Positions 5,784-54,725 of a stretch of DNA of 54,725 nt are shown piece after piece. The stretch's first letter is position 1. Each line of letters starts with the position of its first letter. The notes beneath the pieces are model-generated. The model saw only the letters and a list, made by a program, of their open reading frames with translations, made no database searches and was not told the origin of the DNA. The stretch comes from Acholeplasma sp. (GTDB lineage Bacteria > Bacillota_I > Bacilli_A > Acholeplasmatales > UBA5453), in the NCBI GenBank assembly GCA_012839355.1, contig DUNK01000030.1, positions 1-54,725 on the forward strand. The letters are read 5' to 3'. Made by a program: the position numbers and the translations under genes.

Positions 5784-7842
5784 GTTTTTCATCCTCCTTT
5801 TTTCTATATGTAAGTAATTGAATTGGTTTATCTAATACCGATAACAAGGCCGGTAATGCAAATAAGACAAATATACCTGAATAGAGAGCTCCAAACCCGA
5901 TTAACTCTCCCATTTCACTAACTGCTTCAACTCTAGATAGTAACGCTTCACTAAAGCCTGCAACAGCTAACACTAATGATGAAACGATAATTGAGTGGCT
6001 TGATTTTGTTAGAGCCATAATTGATGCTTCCTTAGGCTTCATATCCACTCTAAACTCTTGATACCTACTGGTAAGTAATACCGCATAATCTATTGTGGCC
6101 CCTAACTGTAAACTAGATACAACTAGATAGCCTATATACGATAATGTTTTATCTTGGAAATAAGGTGCTGCGATATTGACCCAAATTGCTGTTTGAATTA
6201 AAAGTACTAATACAACAGGAATTAATGCTGATTTAAACACTATTGCAATAACTAACATAATCGCTAACACAGAAACTATTGCCACAATAACACCATCTTT
6301 AATTGAAACTTCTTTAATTTCAGTAAGCGATGTTACAACTCCTAATGCTTTAGCTTCACCAAAATAGTATTCTGCGTTTTCAATAATGAAGTCGCTAACC
6401 TCATACATTTCTTCTGATTCAGCTCTTAAATTAATATTGATAATCATTCTTGAATAGTTTTCGCCCATAAATTGAACTAAATATTCTTCTGGTACTATCT
6501 CTATTGGCATTTCCGGATCTATTGTAGTTACTAAACTTTGAATGCTTCTTACTCTTTCGTGTGTCAGCATTTTCTCAGCAAAATTTATTGCTTCTGTTTT
6601 TTGTTCGTTTTTATATAACACTACAACTGGTTGGTTAAACCCAAACACTTCACCAATTGCATTATCATGTCTCGTTTCTATTTTGTTTGGATCAGGTAGC
6701 CCTGCTGCACCATAAAAGAATTTAGTTTTTCCCTGGAAATAAAATGCTGTGCCTGCAATTATTAAAAGAACTGCAACTATTCCCCATCTAACTTTTTGAA
6801 TTCCTTTTCCTAACTTTTTAAATTCTGGGACTAATTTTCTATGTTTCGTCTTAAATAGTAATTTATCAAATGTAACTAGTAAAAGTGGCATTAAGAATAT
6901 CGCTGTTAAGAAACTGATAAAGACTGCTTTTGATAACGAGATACCAATATCAGTTCCGAGTGTATAACGCATTGTTAATAACGCTAAGAAACCAAAAATC
7001 GTTGTTAGTGCACTTGCTGTAACTGAACCCATCGCACCCTTCATCGCATCACTAACTGCACTCATTACATCCATACCCTCTTCTCTCTTTTCCATATATC
7101 TATGAATAAAGAACAGAGAATAGTCTAAACTCATCGCAAGTTGTAAAGCACTCGCAATTGCCATCGTTAAAAATGAAACGCTCGGCATTAAACAATTTGT
7201 TCCTAAATTAATAACAATCGCCACTATTAAATTAATTAGTATTACAACTGGCTCAATCCAACTAGTTGAGAATATAAATAAAATGATAATCGCTATAGGC
7301 ACTACAACACTCATAATCATTACCCCTTCTTTAAAGACGAGGTCTCTATTACCTTTAGCTACAATTGGCTCACCGCGATATTTAGCATCATAATTATTTA
7401 ACACTACTTTAATGTCATTAATTGCTTGATCTGTTTTTGAACTATATTCGTCTTCTAAAAATTCAACCATATAAAGTAGTTTTCCATCTTTATAAAAAGC
7501 TTCAACCATTTCACGAGGATAACTTTCAATTGGCTGCGTTATATCAACCACACTTCCTAACCAAGTAACACCTTTTACATTTTTAACATTACTTAATTCT
7601 TCTTGAAGTTCTTCACCTTGAAATAAATTGTCTTCTTCAATCATAATTTCCATATTAGATGTAACGCCGAATTCATCCTTCATCAATTTAAGCGTCTGTT
7701 TTGTTACTGAATCTTTTGGTAAGTATGAACTCATGTCATAATTAATTTTAACAAGTGGCGCTAACGCAATAGATACAACCAACAATACAGAAAATACAAC
7801 TATGGTAATTATCTTACCTTTTTTTGATAATAGTTTTTTCAT
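5764..7842 (-). CDS. MMPL/RND-superfamily exporter
   Basis: The 692-residue membrane protein has the two-fold repeat of the RND superfamily: one helix, a large outer loop, then five helices, twice. The signature GxxxDY-like motifs appear once per half, in ASALQLAMSLDYSLFF (first half) and SSLQLGATIDYAVLL (second half); these Asp residues carry the proton pathway in MmpL-type proteins. MMPL proteins export lipids, siderophores or polymers, but this substrate is unknown. The start has a strong ribosome site (AAAGGAGGG) and a near-consensus promoter. The lipoprotein gene downstream overlaps it, so the two probably form one export machine. The C-terminus is short and Lys/Glu-rich (KKEDEKHEEKNS). 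Confidence 0.9.
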   Translation of the reverse strand: MKKLLSKKGKIITIVVFSVLLVVSIALAPLVKINYDMSSYLPKDSVTKQTLKLMKDEFGVTSNMEIMIEEDNLFQGEELQEELSNVKNVKGVTWLGSVVDITQPIESYPREMVEAFYKDGKLLYMVEFLEDEYSSKTDQAINDIKVVLNNYDAKYRGEPIVAKGNRDLVFKEGVMIMSVVVPIAIIILFIFSTSWIEPVVILINLIVAIVINLGTNCLMPSVSFLTMAIASALQLAMSLDYSLFFIHRYMEKREEGMDVMSAVSDAMKGAMGSVTASALTTIFGFLALLTMRYTLGTDIGISLSKAVFISFLTAIFLMPLLLVTFDKLLFKTKHRKLVPEFKKLGKGIQKVRWGIVAVLLIIAGTAFYFQGKTKFFYGAAGLPDPNKIETRHDNAIGEVFGFNQPVVVLYKNEQKTEAINFAEKMLTHERVRSIQSLVTTIDPEMPIEIVPEEYLVQFMGENYSRMIININLRAESEEMYEVSDFIIENAEYYFGEAKALGVVTSLTEIKEVSIKDGVIVAIVSVLAIMLVIAIVFKSALIPVVLVLLIQTAIWVNIAAPYFQDKTLSYIGYLVVSSLQLGATIDYAVLLTSRYQEFRVDMKPKEASIMALTKSSHSIIVSSLVLAVAGFSEALLSRVEAVSEMGELIGFGALYSGIFVLFALPALLSVLDKPIQLLTYRKKEDEKHEEKNS

Positions 7843-9048: not shown

Positions 9049-9072
9049 TAAATCACCTCTTTATCCTTTATC

Positions 9073-9081
9073 ATTATAGCA
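9073..9081 (-). promoter_or_regulatory. Extended -10 promoter of lplA
   Basis: The minus strand reads TGCTATAAT, 25 bases before the lplA start. No clear -35 is visible. Confidence 0.6.
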
Positions 9082-9144
9082 TGTACGATTTATATTTTGA
9101 AAAAACTTATCTATTCACTTTCTTTTCTAATAAAGCCTTTATAA

Positions 9145-9173
9145 TTAACAAATCACATAATTAAGTGTATAAT
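9145..9173 (+). promoter_or_regulatory. Promoter of the amidotransferase-like gene
   Basis: TTAACA (9145-9150), 17 bases and TATAAT (9168-9173) form a near-consensus promoter 28 bases before the ATG at 9202. Confidence 0.75.
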
Positions 9174-11999: not shown

Positions 12000-13103
12000 T
12001 TATAACTCTTGAAAATAGTTTTTCGCTGCTTCAAACAAGTGCGTTTTTGTTTGTTTTATGTTATCTTTTAACGATAATTTTGAGTCGTTTATTTCTATGA
12101 TTTTATCAAAGATATTATTGTCTTTTAAAAGGTTTGTTCCAACAAATATTACCACCTTGATTTTAGGATTTGTTTCTTTTGCTTTTAAGGCTATTTGTAA
12201 AGGACCTTTTCCACTTAAAGTTTGACTATCAATCTTGCCTTCTGCCGTTATTAAATAATCTGCCTTTTTAAATGTTTCTTCTAATTTTAATTCTTCATAC
12301 ACAACATCAAAACCAGAAGTTATTTTTCCATCAAAAACTGTCGCTAATGAATATGCTATTCCACCTGCTGCACCCACCCCTGGAACATTAGTGAAATCTC
12401 TATTAAATTCTTTGTTTAAAAGTTCGCTTACAATTTTAAATTGTTCATCATATTTTTTTAAATCTTTTTCTTTTAGTCCCTTTTGTGGACCATATACAAA
12501 TGTTGATCCTCTTTCACCTAAAAGCGGGTTTTTTACATCTGTTGCTAAGATTAAATCTATTTCTTTTAACTTCTTATTTACATTCGTTGAATCAACACTT
12601 TTTATCTTAAAAATATCCTTACCGAAAATGCCAACCTCATCATTATTTTCATCATAAAATTTTATACCTAACGCTTGGAGTGCACCAATCCCCAAATCAT
12701 TTGTTGCGCTACCACCTAAACCGATAATTATTCTTTTAGGATTATATTCTAGGGCTTTTAATAAAAGTTCTCCAACGCCATAAGTCGTTGTATAGTTAGC
12801 GTCTCTTTTATCTTCTTCTACTTTTTCAAATCCGGCTGCTAAAGCCATCTCAATTATTATTGTTTTTTCATCTTTTAAAAAACCTATCTCCGCGCTTGTA
12901 AGTTTTCCTAAAGGCCCCGTAACCATAACCGGTAAAGTTTTATTCGCTAGAGCTTTTAAGATTCCTTCTCCGCCATCAGAGATTGGTTTAAGAATATAAT
13001 TATAATTAGGTTTTACTTCTTTAAAAGCTTTAAAAATTGTTGTAGCAGCTGTTGCTGCATCTAATCCGCCCTTAAAGGAATCTGGGGCAATTATTACTTT
13101 CAT
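12000..13103 (-). CDS. Glycerate kinase (GarK/GlxK family)
   Basis: The 367-residue enzyme phosphorylates D-glycerate with ATP, feeding it into glycolysis as 2- or 3-phosphoglycerate. Family features are the N-terminal IIAPDSFKGG (4-13), PISDGGEG near 41-48, IIGLGGSATNDLGIGAL near 130, GVGAAGGIAY and the late ITAEGKIDSQTLSGKGP. The length is standard. Its start overlaps the stop of the upstream membrane-protein gene by 4 bases (ATGA), so translation is coupled; the ribosome site is GGAAGTTAA. The coupling suggests that the membrane protein affects glycerate supply, but that is inference. No glyoxylate or hydroxypyruvate genes are next to it. Confidence 0.93.
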   Translation of the reverse strand: MKVIIAPDSFKGGLDAATAATTIFKAFKEVKPNYNYILKPISDGGEGILKALANKTLPVMVTGPLGKLTSAEIGFLKDEKTIIIEMALAAGFEKVEEDKRDANYTTTYGVGELLLKALEYNPKRIIIGLGGSATNDLGIGALQALGIKFYDENNDEVGIFGKDIFKIKSVDSTNVNKKLKEIDLILATDVKNPLLGERGSTFVYGPQKGLKEKDLKKYDEQFKIVSELLNKEFNRDFTNVPGVGAAGGIAYSLATVFDGKITSGFDVVYEELKLEETFKKADYLITAEGKIDSQTLSGKGPLQIALKAKETNPKIKVVIFVGTNLLKDNNIFDKIIEINDSKLSLKDNIKQTKTHLFEAAKNYFQEL

Positions 13104-31893: not shown

Positions 31894-33693
31894 TTATTTG
31901 TCTTGCAGTTTATATAGACTATAATAAATTCCTTCTTTTCTTAATAGTTGTTGATGATTACCTTGTTCAACTATTTCTCCTTTTTGTAGGACATATATTC
32001 TATCTGCTTTTTGAATTGTTGATAATCTATGTGCTACAACAATCATCGTAGAGATATCCATCATCTTTTCTAGCGATTCTTGAATGATTGCTTCTGACTC
32101 ACTATCAATGCTTGCAGTTGCCTCATCAAGGATCATTACAGTCGGTTCATAAACTAGTGTTCGTGCAAATGAGAACAATTGTCTTTGCCCTGTTGAAAAG
32201 TTGTTTCCTCTTTCCCTTACAATATAATCATACTTATCTGGCAATGTTTCGATAAATGGCGCAACTCCGACATATTCTGCTGCTTGAATAACCTCTTCAT
32301 CTGTTACTGTGTCATCTTTAAATGCAATATTAGATTTAATCGTCCCGGTGAATAAAAACACATCTTGTGGCATTTGTCCAATTGCACCTCTTAAACTATC
32401 AAGTTTGATTTTTTGAATGTCTATTCCATCAATTAATATTTGACCTTTTTGGACATCGTAGTTTCTAACTATCAAGTTCATTATTGTTGTTTTACCACTA
32501 CCTGTTGGTCCCACGAAAGCTACAGTGTCATCTGGGTTGATTTTGAAAGATATATCTTTTAATACCCACTCATCTTCAATATAAGCAAACCATACATTTT
32601 TAAATTCAATTTCGCCTTTAAAGTCTACCAACTCAACTGCATCTTCTGCATCCATAATTTCTGGAACTGTGTCTAATACATCAAATACTTTCTCTGCACT
32701 TGCAAGAGCACTTTGAAGAATATTAAAGTCTTCACTAATTGATTGAAGCGGACGATAAAAGTCAATTGAGTATTGATACATCATAACCATTAACGCAACT
32801 TGAACAGAAACCACTGATGCCGATGCCCCTGATTCTACTAAATCTAAAACGCTTGAACCAACATAGTAAATAACTAGTAGTGCCGCCAACATTGATAGTA
32901 AATACATTAATGGTCGGTAAATTATAAACAGCACCAACTCTTTTAATTGTTCTTTCCTAAGTTTTTTGTTAGCATCAGCGAACTCATCTTTTTTCTTATT
33001 TTCACGATTAAATACTTGCGTTAGTTTAACACCACTTAAGTTCTCCTGTAAGAAAGCATTCACGTTTGTATTTTCATTTCTAACTCTTCTATATTGTTCT
33101 CTAGCAAGTTTTCTATAACCAAAAGTAATAACTGCTACAAATGGAATTGTTGTTGCCATTATTAATGTCACCTTAACATTAATTACTAACATAATTACAA
33201 ACTGAACAATCATCATTAATAAGTTTCTGATTAAACTGACAATTACTGAAGTATACATTTCTGATAAAGTGTTAGTATCATTTGTAACTCTAGTAATCAT
33301 TTTCCCAACAGGAACTTTATTAAACTGACCTAGTGATAATTTTTCAATATGTTCAAACACTTCTACGCGAACATCTTTAACTATTTTTTGACCGGCAGAT
33401 TGTAATAAAATATTTGAAAAATAAATTATCGCAATCACAATTACTAGTGAAGCAACAAAGATTCCTACAATGCCAATTAAAAATAAATATTTTCGATCTA
33501 CAGACATATCGCTGTTGATTAACCAAACTGCTGTACCCATCAACGCTGCAGTTGCACTACTTAAAATGACATCAAATATCATTAAAATAAAAGATATTAT
33601 GAAGTTTTTAGTGTACGGCTTAGCATAAACCAACAATCTTTTAATGATTTTACTATCCGCTCTATGTCTTGTTACTTCATCAAAGTCACGCAT
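31894..33693 (-). CDS. Heterodimeric ABC exporter, subunit with the catalytic site
   Basis: The 599-residue half-transporter has six membrane helices (about 35-335) and a C-terminal ATPase. Walker A GPTGSGKTT, Q-loop QMPQDVF, signature FSTGQRQL (replacing LSGGQ), Walker B VMILDEATAS with a normal catalytic Glu, and H-loop VVAHRLS. Its partner, encoded just upstream with an 8-base overlap, has a normal signature but an altered Walker B. Together they match heterodimeric exporters such as BmrCD or LmrCD, with one working and one degenerate ATP site. The substrate may be a drug or lipid, which the sequence does not reveal. Confidence 0.92.
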   Translation of the reverse strand: MRDFDEVTRHRADSKIIKRLLVYAKPYTKNFIISFILMIFDVILSSATAALMGTAVWLINSDMSVDRKYLFLIGIVGIFVASLVIVIAIIYFSNILLQSAGQKIVKDVRVEVFEHIEKLSLGQFNKVPVGKMITRVTNDTNTLSEMYTSVIVSLIRNLLMMIVQFVIMLVINVKVTLIMATTIPFVAVITFGYRKLAREQYRRVRNENTNVNAFLQENLSGVKLTQVFNRENKKKDEFADANKKLRKEQLKELVLFIIYRPLMYLLSMLAALLVIYYVGSSVLDLVESGASASVVSVQVALMVMMYQYSIDFYRPLQSISEDFNILQSALASAEKVFDVLDTVPEIMDAEDAVELVDFKGEIEFKNVWFAYIEDEWVLKDISFKINPDDTVAFVGPTGSGKTTIMNLIVRNYDVQKGQILIDGIDIQKIKLDSLRGAIGQMPQDVFLFTGTIKSNIAFKDDTVTDEEVIQAAEYVGVAPFIETLPDKYDYIVRERGNNFSTGQRQLFSFARTLVYEPTVMILDEATASIDSESEAIIQESLEKMMDISTMIVVAHRLSTIQKADRIYVLQKGEIVEQGNHQQLLRKEGIYYSLYKLQDK

Positions 33694-35434
33694 CGCCGCT
33701 CACCTTTCTTTCTAAGGTCTGACGTTGAACTAATTCCTTGTATAATTCAGTTCGAGAAAGGAGTTCTTCGTGAGTACCTACATCTACTAACTGTCCCTTA
33801 TCTAATAATACAACCTTATCTAAATTTCTAACTGTGCTTATTCTATGCGCAATGATAATTGTTGTCTTATTTTTTCTAATTCTTTTTAAATTTTGTAAAA
33901 TTGTTTCTTCTGTATTAGTATCTACGGCGCTAACAGAATCGTCAAAAATTAAAATTGGTGCATCTTTTGCTAAAGCTCTTGCGATTGATATTCTTTGCTT
34001 TTGCCCACCAGAAACTGTTACTCCTCTTTCACCTAACACAGTATCAAAACCATGTGTGAAATCAATAACATTATCATAAATATCAGCCAATTTAGCTGAT
34101 TCCATAATTTCTTCATCAGTTAATTTTTTTGCACCAAAAGCGATATTATCTTTAATTGTTGTTGAATATAAAAAGTTGTCTTGTGGAACATATGCTATTT
34201 GTTCTCTTAAACTTGATATTGAAATATCCATAATATCTTTACCTTCAACATAAATCATATCTCTTTCAATGTTATAAAGTCTTAATAGTAAATCAACTAG
34301 CGTTGTTTTACCAGAACCAGTTCTACCAATAATTCCTATTGATTCGCCAGCTTTCATTGAAAACTTGATATCCTTTAATACATACTGTTCTGGCTCATCT
34401 GGATAAGCAAATGTTAAATTATTAAATGTAATGTTTCCTTTTAATTCAACTTCTTCATCTCCATCAACTAATAAAGGTTTGCTGTCTAAAAACTCAGCAA
34501 CTCTTGAATAAGATGCTAAAGATTGACTTCTTAAATTGGCAAATTGAGTTATAGCCATAACTGGCCATGTTAACATTCCAAATAGCGAAGTGAACTCTGT
34601 TAAATTACCAACACTAAAATTCATAGGATTAGAAATCGCAAAATAAGCGCCAAATAAAATAATTGTTATAAATGTTAAACTAATAAATGTTGATATAACA
34701 ATTTGAACTTTAACCATTTCTCTAACAAAGTCCATATGCTTATTATAAAAATCATCACTTTTCTCTTTAAATAGCATTGCTTCTTTTGTTTCTCTTACGA
34801 ACGCTTTAATTACTTGTATACCTGAAAATGACTCTTGCGTAAAGTCATTCATAGCTTCAAACGAGTCCTGGCGAAGTCTAAACTTCATACGCATTCTCTT
34901 AATAATGAAAAACGCAACAACCCCCAAACATGACAATGGGATTATGCTTACTAGTGTTAACATCACATTCATTCTAAACATTCTTACTATAACAATCCCA
35001 CTTAAAAAGAGTCCATCAAGAAGTAACAATAATGCTCTACCAAATGATTGTCTAATAACTTCAACATCATTAGAAAAATAAGTCATTATCGCACCAACTT
35101 TATTTTCTTGATAATATGGCTGATCAAGTGTCATCGCATGATCAAATAATTGTTTACGTAAATCATACTGAATGCTTCTACTAGTTCCAAATAAAAACAC
35201 ACGCCACATCATTCTACCAATATACATTACCCCGACCAATAGTAAAAATGTGATGATAAAATCCATTAAGCCTTTTCTATTCATAAAGCCATAACTAAAA
35301 TCATCTACCATCTCGCCAAACAGCCTAGGTACATATATACTAATAAAATCTACCAATAGGAGTACAACTGCTCCTATAAATAGTAGAATGCCGTATTTTT
35401 TATAATATTTGTTGATATGTTTTCCAAATAACAC
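33686..35434 (-). CDS. Heterodimeric ABC exporter, subunit with a degenerate Walker B
   Basis: The 582-residue partner half-transporter also has six N-terminal helices and a C-terminal ATPase. Walker A GRTGSGKTTL, Q-loop VPQDNF and signature VSGGQKQR are normal, but the residue after Walker B is Asp rather than Glu (LIFDDSVSAVD), so its own ATP site should hydrolyse poorly. The H-loop (AHRIS) is kept. The start is GTG at 35434, with AAGGAG about 11 bases upstream. It is the first gene of the pair, under an extended -10 promoter; no regulator gene is nearby. Confidence 0.92.
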   Translation of the reverse strand: MLFGKHINKYYKKYGILLFIGAVVLLLVDFISIYVPRLFGEMVDDFSYGFMNRKGLMDFIITFLLLVGVMYIGRMMWRVFLFGTSRSIQYDLRKQLFDHAMTLDQPYYQENKVGAIMTYFSNDVEVIRQSFGRALLLLLDGLFLSGIVIVRMFRMNVMLTLVSIIPLSCLGVVAFFIIKRMRMKFRLRQDSFEAMNDFTQESFSGIQVIKAFVRETKEAMLFKEKSDDFYNKHMDFVREMVKVQIVISTFISLTFITIILFGAYFAISNPMNFSVGNLTEFTSLFGMLTWPVMAITQFANLRSQSLASYSRVAEFLDSKPLLVDGDEEVELKGNITFNNLTFAYPDEPEQYVLKDIKFSMKAGESIGIIGRTGSGKTTLVDLLLRLYNIERDMIYVEGKDIMDISISSLREQIAYVPQDNFLYSTTIKDNIAFGAKKLTDEEIMESAKLADIYDNVIDFTHGFDTVLGERGVTVSGGQKQRISIARALAKDAPILIFDDSVSAVDTNTEETILQNLKRIRKNKTTIIIAHRISTVRNLDKVVLLDKGQLVDVGTHEELLSRTELYKELVQRQTLERKVSGDA

Positions 35435-51839: not shown

Positions 51840-53084
51840 ATGAAAAAATTAAAGGGCGCAGCAATATTAGGTCAATCAGGTGGACCAACAAGCGTTATTA
51901 ATGCCAGCGCAGCGGGAGTTTTCCTAGAAGCGTTAAAACACGAAGAAATCACAGCTGTTTATGGCGCTAAACATGGCATTAGAGGTATTTTAAACGAAGA
52001 GTTTTATGACATCGGTAAAGAAGATGTAAAAGAACTTGAATTATTAAAAAACACACCAGCAAGCATGATTGGTTCGGTTAGATATAAACTAGCTGATCCA
52101 AAAAAAGATCCAACAGATTACTTTAGATTGTTAGAAGTATTCAAAAAATATAACATTCGTTACTTTTTCTATAATGGTGGAAACGACTCAATGGATACAG
52201 CAAACAAAATCGCTGATTTCTTAACTGAACACGATTATGAATGTAGAGTAATGGGCGTTCCTAAAACAATTGATAATGATTTATACGGAACAGATCACTG
52301 CCCAGGTTATGGAAGTGCTGCAAAATATGTTGCAACAACATTGATGGAACTTTACCATGACGCAACAGTTTACGACACTCCTCAAGTAACAATCGTTGAA
52401 ATTATGGGTAGAAACGCTGGTTGGTTAACAGCCGCTAGTCAATTAGCAATTGAAAAAGGTCAAGGCCCAGACTTAGTATACTTACCTGAAAAAGTCTTTG
52501 ATTATGATGAATTCTTTGAAGACATCGAAAAGAAACTAAAAGAAAGTAGTAAAGTAATTGTTGCTTTTAGTGAAGGTGTAAGAGATAAAGATGGAAACTA
52601 CATCCCTGAAAAATATTCTGACCTTTCTAAAGACTCATTTGGGCATACTCAACTTGGTGGAGCTGCTGCAATTTTAGCTGATGAGGTTAAAAAACGCTTT
52701 GATGTTAAAGTACGAGCAATTGAGTTTTCATTAATGCAAAGATGTGCCGCTCACTTAGCTAGTGCAGTTGATGTTGAAGAAGCATTCAACGCTGGTAGAG
52801 AAGCTGTTAAATCAGCCGTTAACGGTCACTCAAAATATATGATTGCCTTTGAAAGAGTTAGCAACAACCCATATAAAATCAATTATGTACATCTACCATT
52901 AAGCAAAGTTGCAAACGTTGAAAAGAAAGTACCACTGGAGTGGATTAAACCACATGGTGCAGGTCTTACAAAAGAATTTGTAGAATATGCTTTACCACTT
53001 ATTCAAGGCGATGATAAAGCACCACTTGAAGATGGTCTCCCAAGATTTGCAAACCTAAAGAAAGTTTTAGTTAATAAAAAATAG
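51840..53084 (+). CDS. pfp: Pyrophosphate-type phosphofructokinase
   Basis: This enzyme phosphorylates fructose 6-phosphate with pyrophosphate, reversibly, and so saves ATP. The 414-residue protein has ILGQSGGPTSVINASAAG, NGGNDSMDTA and VPKTIDNDLYGTDH. Asp in GGNDS (position 104 of E. coli PfkA) and Lys in PKTIDND (position 124) are the residues that mark pyrophosphate users; pfkA next door lacks both. MGRNAGWLTAAS and the long C-terminal region are also typical. The start has GGAGTTGAGATAAT. A terminator follows, and the CRISPR array begins within its T run. Confidence 0.92.
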   Translation: MKKLKGAAILGQSGGPTSVINASAAGVFLEALKHEEITAVYGAKHGIRGILNEEFYDIGKEDVKELELLKNTPASMIGSVRYKLADPKKDPTDYFRLLEVFKKYNIRYFFYNGGNDSMDTANKIADFLTEHDYECRVMGVPKTIDNDLYGTDHCPGYGSAAKYVATTLMELYHDATVYDTPQVTIVEIMGRNAGWLTAASQLAIEKGQGPDLVYLPEKVFDYDEFFEDIEKKLKESSKVIVAFSEGVRDKDGNYIPEKYSDLSKDSFGHTQLGGAAAILADEVKKRFDVKVRAIEFSLMQRCAAHLASAVDVEEAFNAGREAVKSAVNGHSKYMIAFERVSNNPYKINYVHLPLSKVANVEKKVPLEWIKPHGAGLTKEFVEYALPLIQGDDKAPLEDGLPRFANLKKVLVNKK

Positions 53085-53097
53085 TCTAAATGAAGAT

Positions 53098-53128
53098 AAA
53101 AGAACCTATAAGAAAAGGTTCTTTTTTT
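53098..53128 (+). terminator. Terminator of pfp
   Basis: AAAAGAACCT/AGGTTCTTTT (53098-53107 with 53116-53125), 8-base loop and T run. Its tail overlaps the first three bases of the degenerate CRISPR repeat. Confidence 0.85.
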
Positions 53129-54725
53129 ATCAACTAACAAAAATTTTTAGGGTAACAAAACAATCTCTTGATAACTCATTTTCTCATTATCGTTTTCAAA
53201 TAGCAAAAATTTTTAGGGTAACAAAACGAGAGAGGTAAGGGCTCATTATCATTAAGAGTTTTCAAATAGCAAAAATTTTTAGGGTAACAAAACTAGATTT
53301 TATGCGTAAAAACAATCGCAAACGTTTTCAAATAGCAAAAATTTTTAGGGTAACAAAACCTCTCGTAGAAGAGCATAACGGATTCTACGGTTTTCAAATA
53401 GCAAAAATTTTTAGGGTAACAAAACGAGATTATAACGAACGAAGAGAAGACACAGGTTTTCAAATAGCAAAAATTTTTAGGGTAACAAAACAGGGATAAT
53501 TATTTTCCACGTGATATACCGTTTTCAAATAGCAAAAATTTTTAGGGTAACAAAACCAGTCTATCAATAATTTCAATATACTCGTTGTTTTCAAATAGCA
53601 AAAATTTTTAGGGTAACAAAACGTCCTGTAAATTCTGGTAAAATGTCATCAAGTTTTCAAATAGCAAAAATTTTTAGGGTAACAAAACGTCTATAATACG
53701 ATAAAATGCACCTTTTTTGTTTTCAAATAGCAAAAATTTTTAGGGTAACAAAACTCATCAGTCGTATCATGTTCAATAACCAAAGTTTTCAAATAGCAAA
53801 AATTTTTAGGGTAACAAAACAGATTTCATTAAAAATTATAAGGATAATGAGTTTTCAAATAGCAAAAATTTTTAGGGTAACAAAACAACCAAACTAACCA
53901 ACTCTTTACGACCTAGGTTTTCAAATAGCAAAAATTTTTAGGGTAACAAAACTATCCGTACTTATTAGTAGTCGCTTTAAAAGTTTTCAAATAGCAAAAA
54001 TTTTTAGGGTAACAAAACTCAATTGTTGGATTATTCCATGCGGAGTTAGTTTTCAAATAGCAAAAATTTTTAGGGTAACAAAACCTTCTTCATTTTGCTT
54101 TAACATTTCTACTAGTTTTCAAATAGCAAAAATTTTTAGGGTAACAAAACGTTGGCAATACGATACACATGATGGTTATGGTTTTCAAATAGCAAAAATT
54201 TTTAGGGTAACAAAACTAACTGGTCTGTAGCCTGTAGATATAACAAGTTTTCAAATAGCAAAAATTTTTAGGGTAACAAAACAGCCTTTTGCCTTACTTT
54301 TTCTAACTGTTAGTTTTCAAATAGCAAAAATTTTTAGGGTAACAAAACACTTCTTTACTGTTTGATCTTAGTTTTTTCGTTTTCAAATAGCAAAAATTTT
54401 TAGGGTAACAAAACTAATTGACTTTACATCATCAAGATTAAATGGTTTTCAAATAGCAAAAATTTTTAGGGTAACAAAACTTATATCGGTTGTGTCACTC
54501 TTGCCGTTTTGTTTTCAAATAGCAAAAATTTTTAGGGTAACAAAACATGGTTGGAATTTATACGGCGATGGATACGGTTTTCAAATAGCAAAAATTTTTA
54601 GGGTAACAAAACCAGTCGATAATGCACGTAATGTCATTGTATGTTTTCAAATAGCAAAAATTTTTAGGGTAACAAAACGTATTATTATAGAGCAGATGAC
54701 ACCGATGTGTTTTCAAATAGCAAAA
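53126..54725 (-). CRISPR. CRISPR array, type II-like, 25 repeats and 24 spacers, incomplete at the right
   Basis: The 36-base repeat reads GTTTTCAAATAGC at the left end, AAAAATTTTT in the middle and GGGTAACAAAAC at the right (plus strand). There are 23 identical full copies from 53192 to 54678, a degenerate copy at 53126-53161 (mismatches only at repeat positions 1, 4, 9 and 12) and a 17-base partial copy at 54709. All 24 spacers are 30 bases except spacer 6 (53492-53520, 29). Repeat length, GTTTT/AAAAC ends and 30-base spacers fit type II (Cas9) arrays. The degenerate repeat and lack of leader space at the left suggest transcription on the minus strand from a leader to the right, so strand is inferred. 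No cas gene or tracrRNA is in the window. Confidence 0.97.

Follow-up and report, generated by a model that had tools for sequence, protein, structure and literature searches.

Type II-A CRISPR systems of Mollicutes (Acholeplasma, Spiroplasma and Mycoplasma) were described in 2019; their Cas9 proteins are SaCas9-like, with 1069 to 1272 amino acids, and the system of Acholeplasma palmae J233 was reported as degraded (PMC6882279). The locus analyzed here resembles these systems in its order of cas9, tracrRNA, cas1, cas2, (csn2) and array, in a SaCas9-like Cas9 slightly larger than SaCas9, and in a guide RNA with a repeat:anti-repeat stem, a nexus hairpin and a terminator. It differs from them in belonging to another lineage and in its intact cas9, whereas the sole Acholeplasma system in that study is the degraded one. 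Since Mollicutes systems that combine this gene order with SaCas9-like proteins are on record (PMC6882279), the present one is of an already known kind. It is an ordinary system that raises no new question of CRISPR biology except for a small point about a tracrRNA hairpin. What the analysis provides is the assignment of an orphan array to a II-A system that seems complete, in a bacterium related to Mollicutes, and one more SaCas9-like nuclease for a clade of interest in genome editing.

An array at the end of a contig

The window, that is, the whole stretch of DNA analyzed, is the entire contig C29 (54,725 bp) of a 964 kb genome that was assembled in 41 contigs and is estimated to be about 86% complete. 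At its right end lie 23 exact copies of the 36-bp repeat GTTTTCAAATAGCAAAAATTTTTAGGGTAACAAAAC, spaced with a period of 66 and, once, of 65 (Table 1). The array contains 24 spacers, no two of them alike; all are 30 bp long except one of 29 bp. Repeats of 36 bp with spacers of about 30 bp match the format of type II-A arrays. This regularity is far above chance and confirms that the array is real. The initial annotation had described 23 identical repeats with spacers of 30 bases, which is correct but for the one of 29 bp; it also held the array to be actively maintained, a view with which the identical repeats are consistent and no more than that.

Comparison of 30 spacers with 50,697 phage records gave no credible match; the only ones, to Lak phages, had an E value of 4 and were taken as chance. 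For five spacers, the 3' 26 nt were compared with viral contigs, with no exact match, and no self-match that would indicate self-targeting was found between the spacers and the genome itself. Elsewhere in the window (31894-35434, minus strand), two neighbouring ORFs (599 and 582 amino acids) showed partial-length matches to the PADLOC MADS models mad3 and mad8, which may reflect general ATPase-type similarity rather than a defence system.

The cas operon and the probable joining of two contigs

A search of all contigs of the genome located the window repeat on just one other contig, C32, whose last 6 kb hold a cas operon and the start of an array (Table 1; locus L010 starts at C32:97000). The initial annotation had called the array type II, had placed its effector beyond the window, to the right or remote, and had noted neither cas genes nor a tracrRNA to the left of the array. 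It had also proposed a search for cas9, cas1, cas2 and a tracrRNA complementary to the repeat, and all of these were located on C32, where together with a csn2-like gene they adjoin the identical repeat. The operon lies on the leader side of the array, at the right end of C32, which supports the forecast of an effector to the right, beyond the contig. No cas genes occur within the window, the sole Cas9 RuvC_III and Cas1 matches in the genome being on C32, and the best anti-repeat scores in the window outside the array were 41-42 versus 52 for the real anti-repeat on C32. The type II call could be narrowed: type II cas1 and cas2 genes share the operon with cas9, the csn2-like gene is the only ORF between cas2 and the array, and no cas4 was found, a gene content that assigns the system to subtype II-A. 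No NCBIfam model matched the 294-aa Csn2-like protein.

The repeat on C32 reads GTTTTGTTACCCTAAAAATTTTTGCTATTTGAAAAC in the crRNA sense, which is the reverse complement of the window plus strand, so the window array would be transcribed from right to left. C32 ends in a leader part without a trailer and C29 in a trailer part without a leader, and the two ends face each other. As the same repeat is found only on C29 and C32, the latter with the cas operon and the leader, the window appears to carry the distal half of the array; we put at about 95% the probability that it is the older, trailer-side part of a II-A array whose cas operon is on C32. The simplest reading is that both contigs carry one array broken by assembly, a linkage that we infer, as neither a read nor a contig bridges the two ends. 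Together, the 5 complete spacers on C32 and the 24 in the window would give an array of no fewer than 29, plus part of a further one, and the II-A system seems complete but for the assembly gap inside it.

With the C29-C32 junction unassembled, and with a stray repeat-spacer unit upstream of cas9 (L010:7564-7652) leaving room for more than one repeat locus, the window could instead hold a second, separate array with the same repeat that would use the same Cas9 in trans. This is very unlikely, as the leader-only C32 and the trailer-only C29 match in orientation, each contig breaks off within an array and the repeat is on no further contig. Since the genome is estimated to be 86% complete, the window array might also belong to another type (I, III or V) whose effector would be encoded in the missing part; yet the identical repeat stands next to a complete II-A operon on C32, the single cas1 of the genome is of type II and the anti-repeat on C32 fits the window repeat, which leaves this reading with almost no weight.

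At the point where the single II-A array would be interrupted, the right end of C32 (L010:14993-15213), the last 97 nt duplicate the preceding repeats and spacer in inverted orientation. The loop of this fold-back has 16 nt (TGATTTAGGTTATGAC), apparently of the next spacer. The inverted duplication is probably an artefact of assembly or amplification, and Rfam miRNA matches at this end were rejected as artefacts that arise from the fold-back of two repeats.

Table 1. Features of the array in the window and of the cas locus on C32 (L010)
Feature	Position	Strand	Size or evidence
Diphosphate--fructose-6-phosphate 1-phosphotransferase, housekeeping neighbour gene unrelated to CRISPR	window 51840..53084	+	family search
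Distal (trailer) part of type II-A CRISPR array	window 53126..54725	-	orientation from leader-side copy beside csn2 on C32 and degenerate repeat at opposite end
Degenerate terminal repeat, trailer end of array	window 53126..53161	-	4 mismatches
23 identical 36-bp repeats with unique spacers between	window 53192..54678	-	
Further repeat severed by contig end	window 54709..54725	-	first 17 nt (+ strand)
cas9	L010:9180-12473		1097 aa; TIGR01865, 3.9e-172
tracrRNA gene, between cas9 and cas1	L010 ~12485-12590		
cas1	L010:12598-13494		TIGR03639 (type II Cas1), 3.4e-84
cas2	L010:13484-13807		TIGR01573, 1.2e-22
csn2-like	L010:13817-14701		294 aa; PADLOC Csn2 models, 4.6e-50; Pfam St_Csn2, 1.1e-8, above cut-off
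Leader with TATAAT box, then first five repeats	L010:14742 to contig end		

Cas9, the tracrRNA and its 5' hairpin

RuvC, HNH, WED and PI domains were recognized in the Cas9 protein, whose best solved relative is SaCas9 (1.6e-161). The catalytic motifs of the two align, and the RuvC and HNH residues derived from these motifs are D9, E515, H598, N621, H760 and D763. The system of Staphylococcus aureus (PDB 5AXW, 5CZZ) is thus like the present one in its catalytic motifs and in the similar size of Cas9, and differs in repeat sequence and in exact length (1053 versus 1097 aa). A compact Cas9, as suggested beforehand, was found in the sense that the protein is of SaCas9-like size, but it is no smaller than SaCas9.

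The tracrRNA gene has a terminator hairpin and a perfect sigma-70-type promoter (TTGACA-17-TATAAT), which lies within the end of cas9. Repeat and anti-repeat match along 34 nt, apart from 3 mismatches and a single gap of 2 nt. When repeat and tracrRNA are joined, the folding energy is -59.7 kcal/mol versus -20.6 for shuffles (z = -11.8). Gene content, repeat identity, this pairing and the conserved catalytic residues are evident from the DNA itself; expression, processing, PAM, cleavage and immunity would follow those of the family. By this analogy, transcription of the array would start at the leader behind csn2 and run leftwards in the coordinates of the window, and the tracrRNA, encoded between cas9 and cas1, would pair with each repeat. 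Host RNase III would then cut the repeat:tracrRNA duplex, and the SaCas9-like Cas9 with its crRNA:tracrRNA would cleave the matching DNA of invaders next to a PAM on the downstream side of the protospacer. Acquisition of new spacers, by Cas1, Cas2 and Csn2, would take place at the leader end.

Between the predicted start site of the tracrRNA and the anti-repeat there is a hairpin (L010:12485-12545), which was also seen in loci L012, L014, L027, L031, L032 and L037. It reads GUAUCC-AAUAAA-GGAUAC here, and the one in G005 has a 14-bp stem. In seven close tracrRNAs the fold is more stable than in simple shuffles (z from -2.5 to -7.2). In an alignment of 11 sequences, five of the six pairs of the hairpin change on both sides, and the share of paired cells is 80%, against 72% for shuffles and 27-55% for slid controls. 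Three rows of this alignment are out of register and it is therefore imperfect, so that the covariation is good but inconclusive evidence for a 5' hairpin conserved across the SaCas9-like clade. Little of the hairpin is seen in several relatives that are more distant and have shorter segments (G301, G448, G383, G395 and G401). A limited literature search found no description of this structure, by which we do not imply that it is new. Self-repression of the S. pyogenes tracr-L kind (PMC11417352) was considered but found no support: a search upstream of the anti-repeat gave no second copy of the 5' half of the repeat, and hence the hairpin does not act as a natural single guide.

Stray repeats upstream of cas9 and related systems

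Upstream of cas9, a full repeat (L010:7564-7599) is followed by a 30-nt spacer and a 23-nt repeat piece (7630-7652), after which comes a 464-aa ORF; the same 23 nt are found again at 9053-9075, about 100 bp before cas9. No such repeats occur beside cas9 in G001 or the other relatives, and they may be the remnant of a shift or insertion of the array, or a misassembly at the repeat. A role of the half-repeat as a cas9 promoter found no support, as the 9/12 match that overlaps it (TTGTTA-16-TACAAT) is no commoner than in shuffles, and another candidate (9126-9154) is placed as the one of G001, where no repeat exists. A broader proposal, in which the conserved hairpin would control tracrRNA stability or availability across the clade and the stray repeat pieces would serve here as a control element of cas9, seems to us doubtful.

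The 464-aa ORF is 5'-truncated and lipoprotein-like, and lacks the N-terminal signal that its only relative has. A role as a Cas accessory or anti-CRISPR protein was discarded, given that the ORF has no family match and that its sole relative in the order, in G015, is a lipoprotein-like gene beside a ribosomal protein gene. This relative (L049:1301-2889) has an in-frame TGA after about 54 codons and would be either a pseudogene or a gene in which TGA is read as Trp.

Close Cas9 proteins (E <= 1e-60) were present in 7 of the 160 genomes of the order, including the present one, and 17 of 395 genomes sampled from the class had a Cas9 at E <= 1e-120. Such a scattered occurrence suggests that the system was transferred horizontally or lost repeatedly. 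Repeats of the same kind adjoin relatives of the present Cas9 in G001, G005, G046, G033 and G027. In G001 (L026), of the same genus, Cas9 is 62% identical to the present one over its full length, the order cas9, cas1, cas2, csn2 and array is as here, and the repeat and tracrRNA are related, whereas the stray repeats upstream of cas9 are missing and the chromosomal neighbour is another. The cas9 of G046, a single contig of 1,554,229 bp, is broken (C1:305602-308863, L027), with an 878-aa frame and the remainder in another frame. We presume that this is the degraded system of Acholeplasma palmae J233, which it fits. The array beside the broken gene has about 48 repeats, with blocks of spacers duplicated internally.
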